This document shows, one piece after another, positions 28,034 to 29,426 of a DNA stretch of 50,214 bases. How positions within the stretch are numbered: position 1 is the first letter of the stretch; the number at the start of each line of letters is the position of its first letter. Below the pieces are notes generated by a model, which saw nothing but the letters and a program-made list of their open reading frames with translations, did no database searches and had not been told where the DNA came from. A program made the translations under genes and the position numbers. This stretch comes from Alphaproteobacteria bacterium (lineage in GTDB: Bacteria > Pseudomonadota > Alphaproteobacteria > Puniceispirillales > Puniceispirillaceae), in the NCBI GenBank assembly GCA_016780775.1, contig JADHLI010000015.1:1-50214 (forward strand), given 5' to 3'.

Positions 28034-28071
28034 AAAACTTATGTATCTGATCGTTAACGAATCATCAAATA

Positions 28072-28099
28072 TTTTGTCTGAACGTTTTTTGTTTATAAT
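28072..28099 (+). promoter_or_regulatory. Possible promoter of the 24-codon unit
   Basis: A perfect TATAAT at 28094-28099 is preceded by TTTTGT (28072-28077) with a 16-base gap. The -35 match is poor. Downstream, AAGCCT-TCACAC-AGGCTT (28120-28137) could form a hairpin in the leader. Transcription from here would give an RNA of roughly 330 bases ending at the terminator at 28399-28435. Confidence 0.35.
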
Positions 28100-28191
28100 G
28101 GATTATCCGAAAGTGGAAAAAGCCTTCACACAGGCTTGACAGCTTGGCTCGGTGTCTAGAGCGTATTAAGCATCGTTTTAACAGATAGTAG

Positions 28192-28202
28192 AGGAGGTGA
28201 TC
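28192..28202 (+). promoter_or_regulatory. Near-perfect Shine-Dalgarno sequence
   Basis: AGGAGGTGATC is complementary over 11 bases to the conserved 3' end of bacterial 16S rRNA. Its GGAGG core ends seven bases before the ATG at 28205. It is the longest such match noticed in the window, longer than those of the ribosomal protein genes. Confidence 0.8.
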
Positions 28203-28204
28203 AT

Positions 28205-28279
28205 ATGTCTAGTGAACAGACTAGCTTTGCAGATCAATTAGGGTTTTGGATGTGTTGTGGAGAGCAGCCTCTCTGCTAA
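28205..28279 (+). CDS. 24-residue peptide, unknown; possible leader peptide or peptide precursor
   Basis: ATG 28205 opens a 24-codon frame ending at TAA 28277-28279. The peptide starts MSSEQ, is polar in its first half, then has LGFW and ends MCCGEQPLC, so three of its last eight residues are cysteine and one tryptophan precedes them. The start is supported by the very strong ribosome binding site at 28192-28202. The end of the frame can form two competing hairpins (GAGAG/CTCTC at 28260-28273 or AGCAG/CTGCT at 28263-28277). No gene follows on this strand before a strong terminator, so an attenuation role would need a distant or lost target. A modified peptide, a metal-binding peptide or a small dual-function RNA are alternatives. 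I recognise no family. Confidence 0.55.
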   Translation: MSSEQTSFADQLGFWMCCGEQPLC

Positions 28280-28371
28280 TCATAATTCCAAATCATGGCC
28301 TGAGGGTGGGCGCTGATTGCCGCATGAGCAGCATCGATGCGCCTTTCAAAACACCCCTCTGATAGGCAGAG

Positions 28372-28387
28372 TTAGCGTACACGCTAA
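28372..28387. repeat. Perfect 7-bp inverted repeat
   Basis: TTAGCGT-AC-ACGCTAA is a palindrome with a two-base centre, lying 12 bases before the terminator. It may be a hairpin in the small transcript or a protein-binding site. Confidence 0.5.
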
Positions 28388-28398
28388 AAAACTTAAAT

Positions 28399-28435
28399 AA
28401 AAGGAGAGGCTAGGATACCCTGCCTCTCCTTTTTT
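28399..28435. terminator. Strong bidirectional terminator
   Basis: AAAAGGAGAGGC (28399-28410) pairs with GCCTCTCCTTTT (28422-28433); three more pairs can form inside the loop (AGG 28412-28414 with CCT 28419-28421). T residues follow on the plus strand, and the minus strand reads into TTTTATTTAAGTTTTTT. It can therefore end both the small plus-strand unit and the minus-strand lysR transcript, whose stop is about 75 bases away. Confidence 0.85.
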
Positions 28436-28467
28436 AATAAGACATCTTCTAATGCCGATCAGAACAT

Positions 28468-28527
28468 CTTGTTTCCGCTTATCTTGTTTCTGCTTATCGT
28501 GTTTCCGCTTATCGTGTTTCGTCTGGG
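28468..28527. repeat. 15-base tandem repeat, four copies, across the lysR stop
   Basis: Units at 28468-28482, 28483-28497 and 28498-28512 follow the pattern C(T/G)TGTTTC(C/T)GCTTAT; the fourth (28513-28527) begins CGTGTTTCG and then diverges. The lysR stop codon (28509-28511) lies inside the third unit, so the array covers the end of the coding region and its 3' flank. Confidence 0.85.
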
Positions 28528-29426
28528 AATCGTTCATTAATGCTTTGCAGCAATTGGTCTAGGAACTTGGCTGCGGCAACAGGCAGCACACGCCCCTTAG
28601 CCTGAACAAGGTGAACCAGACCTGTGCCCACATCGCGCTCATCCAACGGAATAAAAACCAACCCTTTTGGTGCCGCACCTGATTGTAAAAACCCAAGCGG
28701 TATATGGAAACCGATTATTGATTCATGGGCGGCATAGTTAAACATCATGTTAAAATCATCCGCTGTGACGGCCTCGTCAAGTTGCAGATTAGCTTGCAAT
28801 TGTCCGACCTCTAGAAGCGTGCGTAACCCCCCATTTGCTTGCGGCAACATTACTTTTGTGTTCAAGCAATCTTGCAGGCGCAAGCTTGTTTTTTCAGCAA
28901 GAGGATGGGTTTCATGCATAAAAGCATGCACGCGCTGTTCAACTGTGGCAACGATTTGAACATCTGATGGAATAACCGCGTCAAACAGCATTGCAATGTC
29001 AATTTCAAATTCACGAAGTGCGCGCAAAGAATCGCTTGGGTTGGCGGTGGCAATCTCAAAACTAACAGAATTAAATTGTCCCCGATACAGACCTATCTGT
29101 TCGGGAAGGAAGCTTGCAACTAGTTCTTGACCCGTACCTAGCCTGACATGACCGCGCCTGATCCCAGATAGGTCTGCGATTTGCGACAGTACCCGCGATA
29201 AATCAGTCATCTGATAGCGGATATGCTGGATAAATAACTCACCAGCTGTATTGAGCCGCACGCCCGAAGGTAAGCGCTCAAACAAACTTGTGCCCACTTC
29301 TTCTTCTAACGACAATATCCGCCTATTGAGTGCTGTGGAGGTGATGTTGAGTTTTTCAGCAGCTTTGCGAATAGACCCCTCACGTGCCACAACATCAATA
29401 TATTTCAAATGGGTAAGATGACGCAT
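28509..29426 (-). CDS. LysR-family transcriptional regulator
   Basis: The 305-residue protein has the LysR winged helix-turn-helix at residues 1-60 (FKYID-type start, VAREGSIRKAAEKLNITSTA, then LEEEVGTSLFERLPSGVRLN) and a periplasmic-binding-protein-like effector domain. ATG is at 29424-29426. The stop lies in a tandem repeat, so the last few residues (PDETR) may be variable. It is divergent from glnK-amtB, with a perfect inverted repeat 25 bases upstream of its start that could be its own operator. A role in nitrogen metabolism is suggested by position only. Confidence 0.92.
   Translation of the reverse strand: MRHLTHLKYIDVVAREGSIRKAAEKLNITSTALNRRILSLEEEVGTSLFERLPSGVRLNTAGELFIQHIRYQMTDLSRVLSQIADLSGIRRGHVRLGTGQELVASFLPEQIGLYRGQFNSVSFEIATANPSDSLRALREFEIDIAMLFDAVIPSDVQIVATVEQRVHAFMHETHPLAEKTSLRLQDCLNTKVMLPQANGGLRTLLEVGQLQANLQLDEAVTADDFNMMFNYAAHESIIGFHIPLGFLQSGAAPKGLVFIPLDERDVGTGLVHLVQAKGRVLPVAAAKFLDQLLQSINERFPDETR

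Follow-up and report, generated by a model that had tools for sequence, protein, structure and literature searches.

A family of structured RNAs with an extended Shine-Dalgarno sequence and a predicted translated frame in Alphaproteobacteria

Positions ~28170-28435 of the window (the whole 50,214-nt stretch of DNA that was analysed) were identified by sequence comparison as a single member of a conserved RNA gene family. The locus very probably represents a new family of structured, translated RNAs. In the comparison of related genomes, selection is seen to keep the Shine-Dalgarno sequence, the start codon, the open frame and a hairpin, and hardly the amino acids. The reading preferred here, held tentatively at a probability of roughly two in five, is that the locus is an independent gene whose product is a small RNA, both structured and translated and ~265 nt long in the window by its predicted ends; this RNA would catch 30S ribosomal subunits, its folded frame serving as a gate or a sensor. 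We infer that the job of the RNA involves the ribosome itself.

The locus and its distribution

The element in the window and its downstream neighbour were annotated as follows.

28136-28141 and 28157-28162, + strand: promoter-like boxes, TTGACA and an imperfect TAGAGC with 15-nt spacing, read from the sequence by eye
28176-28183, + strand: conserved leader TTTTAACA (class form TTCAACAA), from blast conservation, alignments and column counts
28192-28202, + strand: long Shine-Dalgarno sequence AGGAGGTGATC, with 11 nt complementary to the 16S 3' tail
28205-28279, + strand: ATG at 28205 and a 24-codon frame with its stop, encoding MSSEQTSFADQLGFWMCCGEQPLC; the frame is kept open in the family and the peptide is unconserved
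28212-28230, + strand: 5' arm of the long closing helix, with P1 GUG at 28212-28214 and then mainly 28221-28230, from the fold of 28211-28383 and the family covariation of P1
28257-28276, + strand: P3 hairpin, with an 8-bp stem (28257-28264/28269-28276) and loop CAGC (28265-28268), in the minimum-energy fold
28366-28382, + strand: 3' arm of the long closing helix, 28366-28378 and P1 CAC at 28380-28382 (family motif NUCACG), from the fold and covariation
28372-28387, + strand: palindrome TTAGCGTACACGCTAA
28399-28435, + strand: intrinsic terminator, a 15-bp stem (28399-28433) followed by a T-run, from the sequence, its self-complementarity and the fold
28509-29426, convergent to the element: lysR (PF00126 and PF03466, by Pfam), with a P-II gene next after it

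The earlier note had described this region as a self-contained mini-gene, and the description holds for the Shine-Dalgarno sequence, frame, hairpins and terminator, to which the promoter-like boxes can be added. The 11-base match with its spaced ATG and 24-codon frame, a hairpin over the end of the frame, the palindrome and the 15-bp-stem terminator were all found in the sequence or its minimum-energy fold where that note had placed them. The TTGACA/TAGAGC pair was absent from the output of a promoter consensus scan of the window, and the intrinsic terminator at 28399-28435 from that of a simple scan. A motif search across 132 representative elements returned two motifs, CTTGnC at about -67 and an A...T box at about -44 relative to the start codon, with scores above those of shuffled controls, which were given 8 search restarts against 20 for the real set. 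The near-symmetry of the terminator stem means that lysR, on the opposite strand, may end there as well.

The distribution of the element was followed with sequence patterns and covariance models. The 17-nt pattern GGAGGTGATCNNATGTC occurred once each in 58 of the 136 genomes of the window's order, and its reversed control in none of the 136. A search allowing up to 3 mismatches took in 40 of the 78 order genomes without the exact pattern, and 13 of these 40 carried GGAGGTGGTC, a change that retains a G.U pair with 16S rRNA. Blast comparison of the stretch with its relatives delimited a conserved core of ~45 nt around the Shine-Dalgarno sequence and the start. Model R1 covers the element core and was derived from 51 order sequences, and the longer model R2 from 60 sequences class-wide; these building sequences match by construction, and the genome counts were made with the stricter filters of Infernal, under which weak members may be missed. 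R1 matched 94 of the 136 genomes of the order, 92 of 385 genomes in a sample of the class at E <= 0.01 (the weaker ones being short partial matches), and 66 of 398 in a sample of the phylum, 62 of them inside the class and 4 outside. R2 matched 51 of the 61 genomes of the window's family, including 27 of the 28 of high quality, and 94 of 398 in the phylum sample (92 in the same class and 2 outside). Ten family genomes gave no R2 match; nine of them are at most 80% complete and one is 95% complete. The matching family genomes carry one copy in 50 of 51 cases and two in the remaining genome. That genome (G006, of the same genus) is the only one in the family with two model matches, which could be a true duplication or an artefact of the draft assembly.

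A longer pattern, AAAGGAGGTGATCNNATGTCNA, was found in at least 118 stretches. Its carriers among the 80 matches listed include Mesorhizobium, Hoeflea, Aureimonas, Inquilinus, Ruegeria and Hyphomonas, and contigs labelled 'SAR116 cluster' and 'Candidatus Puniceispirillum' are also among the matches listed. Among records labelled Gammaproteobacteria, L206 (itself one of the R2 building sequences) has the full anatomy, and L198 and L239 have part of it only. The elements of L206 and L169 had no match in plasmid records, and the L338 stretch had one, of 36 nt. Among viral contigs, a 22-nt pattern occurred in a single contig, which was not counted as a member because its R2 match extends over 32 nt only. 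Family f174 gave only short partial R2 matches. By these counts, the element is conserved, mostly single-copy, scattered through the class and rarely found outside it. A contig labelled as a Klebsiella pneumoniae MAG (L224) holds an element with Shine-Dalgarno sequence, P1 and terminator; this bin is possibly mislabelled or contaminated.

The genomic context was compared for 213 elements, collected with a pattern that fixed GGAGGTG[AG]TC, [AGT]TG and TC and limited the frame to 40 codons; 100 of the 213 came from loci of the AAAGGAGGTGATCNNATGTCNA-type search, whose pattern also fixes AAA and ATG. Flanking genes vary between lineages, with 225 clusters of flanking proteins of which 175 are singletons. 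The downstream ORF (at least 100 aa) lies on the opposite strand in 123 cases and on the same strand in 65, and is absent in 25. A search of the 213 elements for a cis-acting context found no neighbour gene common across lineages. Neighbours are retained within lineages, examples being lysR, named by Pfam, and ParA and a rhodanese-like gene, both named by eye.

A leader-peptide attenuator was considered as a candidate and rejected on the convergent lysR in the window, and on the mixed orientation and the lack of a cross-lineage neighbour in the 213 elements. Simple attenuation had already been judged unlikely in the earlier note, in agreement with the convergent orientation of the next downstream gene.

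The Shine-Dalgarno sequence and the reading frame

The Shine-Dalgarno sequence is 11 nt long in the window and reaches 15 nt (GAAAGGAGGTGATCC) in other members. GAAAGGAGGTGATCC is the 15-nt complement of the 16S tail GGATCACCTCCTTTCT; a 53-nt query ending in that tail matched 237 plasmid records, 209 of them at >=99%, and the listed names were mostly alphaproteobacterial. The whole of GAAAGGAGGTGATCC is present in 105 of the 213 elements, and in 26 of the 113 elements of a subset that was not collected with an AAA-containing pattern. For this subset the search pattern had set every base between -12 and -3 except that at -5, which was A in 90 and G in 23, the G still pairing with 16S rRNA as G.U. 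Further upstream, A was kept at -15 in 102 of the 113 elements, at -14 in 107 and at -13 in 111. The start codon of the same 113 elements, for which only ATG, GTG and TTG were permitted, was ATG in 99, GTG in 12 and TTG in 2. As a control, the best Shine-Dalgarno match at any candidate start was determined for 124 long ORFs from the window and loci L004-L062, and was at most 9 nt, with a median of 5. Judged against these ORFs and by its retention, the long Shine-Dalgarno sequence is exceptional and conserved in its own right. In full-length folds of 61 elements with approximate transcript ends, the GGAGG core was engaged in pairing for the most part, with a mean unpaired probability of 0.19-0.47, and access to the site may therefore be restricted.

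Variants of the Shine-Dalgarno sequence occur in otherwise normal elements, with an extra A (GGAAGGTGATCC) in L300, L301, L303 and L305 and a lost A (GGAGGTGTCC) in L158 and L159.

Downstream of this site, the members share a start codon followed by a UCN codon and an open frame of 14-36 codons. An in-frame stop before nt 48 was found in none of the 213 elements, against 118 and 103 in the other two frames. After similar rows had been collapsed, early in-frame stops numbered 0 of 103, against 55 and 46 in the other frames, and for the 113-element subset the figures were 0 of 113 against 76 and 75. Such a conserved open frame points to probable translation. The earlier note had proposed looking for related genomes in which the frame is broken; it is unbroken before codon 16 in all 213 elements.

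The encoded peptide behaves differently from its frame. Over 93 nearest-neighbour pairs, dN/dS was 0.79, with 137, 145 and 163 differences at the three codon positions, and residues past Met-Ser-Ser vary freely between lineages. The closest full-length relative, L004, has MSCGEQPLY, so that two of the three cysteines of the window's peptide are changed. The EQPL codons of the window coincide with GAGCAGCCT, the sequence of the P3 hairpin, and KSSL or MSSL is read there elsewhere. Across the 172 elements with P3, the hairpin loop begins in frame 0 in 120, frame 2 in 47 and frame 1 in 5. No match was obtained for three of the peptides in Pfam or for five in NCBIfam. The near-neutral drift of the peptide, together with the presence of P3 in all three frames, indicates that RNA shape and translation are kept and the peptide is not. 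The metal- or thiol-responsive micropeptide, or peptide precursor, that the earlier note had offered as options therefore found no support in the comparison, given the lost cysteines, the dN/dS of ~0.79, the lack of conservation past Met-Ser-Ser and the identity of EQPL as one frame of an RNA hairpin. Its other option, a dual-function small RNA, fits the conserved frame and conserved hairpin seen in the alignments.

Two groups of variant frames were observed. In family f26 (L302 and L306-L313), a GTG start opens an 18-codon frame whose stop abuts a GGGCARCCC hairpin, which places the hairpin just past the frame rather than within its end; GGGCAAACCC is present in L309 and L311. In family f174, with genomes of 6-8 Mb, the 14-codon variants L363-L365 have AAGCGCTGTCACCTCGCTG common to their frames and seem to represent another architecture, in which the same Shine-Dalgarno sequence precedes a GTG start.

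The P3 and P1 helices

RNAalifold, run on the alignment of 51 order sequences alone, predicted a hairpin at GAGCAGCCT, termed P3, with 8 bp in its stem and 4 nt in its loop. Four further pairs near the start codon were uninformative, as they never vary. Pairing was seen in 89.7% of the P3 cells compared with 65.3% in shuffles, and 103 cells were changed on both sides compared with 36.1. P3 reached a covariation score of 0.739; shuffles gave 0.279, and sliding the helix by 1-3 columns gave no more than 0.262. The hairpin is present in 172 of the 213 elements, and 41 fail the criteria used here. Its loop is CAGC in 107 of the 172, CAAC in 26, CAGT in 23, CAAT in 8 and another sequence in 8, a C-A-R-Y tetraloop forming the cap in most members. 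Some of the members that lack P3 hold a copy of the anti-Shine-Dalgarno sequence able to pair with their own Shine-Dalgarno site, namely GGATCACCTCC in L318, downstream of the frame, and GATCACC in L280, L331 and L329.

The second helix, P1, joins the start of the frame to the 3' side of the element. A motif search of the 3' side, blind to the start region, returned TCACGGAAGG just ahead of the terminator. A scan of 462 column pairs, made on the 84 of 99 rows retained by a motif filter, placed the two best pairs and four of the best nine on one antidiagonal. These were d+11, d+10, d+9 and d+7 (with the A of AUG as 0) with motif positions -1, 0, +1 and +3, at z of 10.2, 6.3, 4.4 and 4.1, respectively; the fifth pair, d+8, was not among the 28 best. 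The antidiagonal indicates that AGUGAN pairs with NUCAC. Variants in which the pairing is kept were found by eye, with GTATT/AATAC and GTGTT/AACAC in L023 and L063, CATGGT/ACCATG in L318-L321, and CATTGTC/GACAATG and CACCAAA/TTTGGTG in L369 and L373.

Both helices were also scored in a class-wide alignment, A2, made from 60 of 89 candidates after 29 with a doubtful 3' end, including the window row L001, had been dropped. P1 and P3 together scored 0.535 in A2, compared with 0.234 when shuffled and at most 0.194 when slid, a comparison that favours P1 because the 3' ends were set by a complementarity search; the column scan is the less biased test. The hairpin region of the 60 selected elements had a mean z of -3.56, with 54 of 60 below -2, and their minimum-energy folds contained P1 in 39, P3 in 48 and both in 36. 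For 99 elements with rough ends that often cut the 3' arm, the mean z was -1.73 and 37% lay below -2. P1 begins at d+7 in both the column scan and A2, and is weak in the window itself. For the family, on this covariation, the frame from codon 3 onward is inside a long hairpin closed by P1, and a terminator after the hairpin is among the conserved features.

In the window, the predicted transcript region of 266 nt (28173-28438) had a folding energy of -92.4 kcal/mol (z -4.10), which beat 200 of 200 shuffles. Folded alone, 28211-28383 formed a closed hairpin, with GUG 28212-28214 on CAC 28380-28382 and 28221-28230 on the 28366-28378 arm; its z was -3.15 and was equalled by 1 of 200 shuffles. P1 here consists of three contiguous pairs and is missing from the minimum-energy fold of the whole transcript, and the centroid of that transcript retains only part of the closing helix. 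The R2 match in the window stops at 28356, compared with a 3' arm called at 28366-28382. The claim of a long closing hairpin in the window itself leans partly on kinship with the family.

Possible function and relation to known systems

A 30S subunit must hold the mRNA track around the start codon single-stranded, and the start of the hairpin lies inside this footprint. The first base of the start codon lies 7 nt ahead of the hairpin, so that a subunit would have to melt P1 before initiating. The proposed RNA would bind free 30S subunits very tightly through its Shine-Dalgarno sequence, and a subunit may sit docked on it, as with rpsO mRNA. Successful translation would open the hairpin, the translation of a throw-away frame serving as a reset. 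Should initiation fail, the hairpin would stay closed and the P3 loop could be displayed to a putative partner. In this way the RNA would act as a buffer for, or a readout of, free 30S subunits or the capacity for initiation. It is a more doubtful extension that this is an ancient, class-wide RNA that tests or buffers free, perhaps newly matured, 30S subunits through pairing with the 16S tail and a throw-away frame, the closed hairpin signalling failed initiation; it would then be a stand-alone sensor of ribosome capacity, with the peptide irrelevant.

Other readings account for parts of the same evidence. The element could be a small regulatory RNA that base-pairs with mRNAs, with the purine-rich leader or a hairpin strand as its seed and the frame as a by-product, and the arrangement of 5' leader, hairpin and terminator in a stand-alone gene of varied contexts would suit it. 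This is nevertheless unlikely, because this frame, unlike the other two, is open to nt 48 in 213 of 213 elements, the start position alternates between codons that can initiate, and the long match is exactly to the 16S tail, at the spacing used for translation. Small RNAs with anti-Shine-Dalgarno (CCUCC) loops occur in Rhizobiales, and the length of the GGAGG-centred match could be that of a decoy soaking up such regulators through its perfect GGAGG site. We consider a decoy improbable, however, as the complementarity, which takes in GAUC at one end and AAA at the other, exceeds what a CCUCC loop needs, and the site is correctly spaced to a start codon that is kept.

It also seems improbable that the locus is a micropeptide gene with a functional 24-residue product, such as a thiol or metal peptide or a precursor. 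Its translation signals are excellent and its frame is open, but the cysteines are lost, nothing is conserved past MSS, a dN/dS of 0.79 gives no clear purifying selection on amino acids, and the Pfam and NCBIfam searches returned no match. That the stretch amounts to no more than a terminator shared with lysR, the 3' flank of that gene and a frame arisen by chance has next to no probability: the nearly symmetric stem could serve lysR, but the same anatomy recurs in many genomes with different neighbour genes, and the GGAGGTGATCNNATGTC counts, the R1 matches and the varied flanking genes contradict it. The earlier note had raised this possibility as a check, and the element is retained beside neighbours other than lysR.

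At the gathering score, Rfam 15 gave 0 matches in the window, in 14 relative loci and in 10 class-wide loci, and at E up to 5 the region 28050-28480 gave only six sub-threshold matches, all of which overlap the terminator. No description of the element was found in searches of open-access text, and it is not described in the available text of PMC2704228, PMC11109978, PMC10117765, PMC5082802 and PMC3858243. What appears new about the element is the way its features are combined; a mechanism that would set it apart as a new kind is proposed, and members may stand unrecognised in tables of small RNAs and short ORFs. A single-copy RNA gene in 27 of 28 high-quality family genomes without an Rfam, Pfam or NCBIfam match is rare. 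It offers a clean case in which translation and RNA shape appear conserved and the peptide does not, a case that would escape surveys for small proteins that rely on a conserved peptide. If 30S subunits are engaged as the leader suggests, it would also give a handle on how bacteria gauge free ribosomes.

SgrS, RNAIII and SR1 are dual-function small RNAs whose peptides are functional. Like them, and like rnTrpL/peTrpL of Sinorhizobium as described in the available part of PMC10117765, the element would be one short transcript that is both structured and translated. The rnTrpL/peTrpL peptide is functional according to that text, whereas the peptide of the element drifts near neutrally; rnTrpL is also leaderless and corresponds to an attenuator (PMC10117765, same part); the element is distinguished by promoter-like boxes of its own and an extreme Shine-Dalgarno sequence. 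With leader-peptide (uORF) attenuators the element shares a short frame that overlaps RNA structure and is followed by an intrinsic terminator; it differs from them in that the window offers no downstream gene to be regulated and the codons show no conserved run.

The closest parallel for the proposed docking is rpsO mRNA, on which, in the accessible portion of PMC3858243, the Shine-Dalgarno sequence docks the 30S subunit on an mRNA that remains folded until melted by S1. Both have a Shine-Dalgarno sequence and structure at the first codons that has to melt for the start codon to enter the P site, predicted here and described for rpsO in that portion of the paper; structure close downstream of the AUG, as in an rpsO-like docking RNA, was found for the family. 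The rpsO leader differs in acting in cis on a real protein gene, in forming a pseudoknot, and in having a short Shine-Dalgarno sequence (GGAG) and S15 as ligand (PMC3858243, same portion), whereas the element has no downstream gene, a plain long hairpin and a Shine-Dalgarno sequence of 11-15 nt.

SEP1 of Sinorhizobium meliloti, a protein of 23 aa, has the top translation efficiency among non-annotated sORFs in the available part of PMC10117765. The element resembles it as a very short, strongly translated alphaproteobacterial frame, its own translation being deduced from the conserved frame. SEP1 is acidic (pI 4.18) and conserved in Rhizobiaceae by the same part of that source (PMC10117765).
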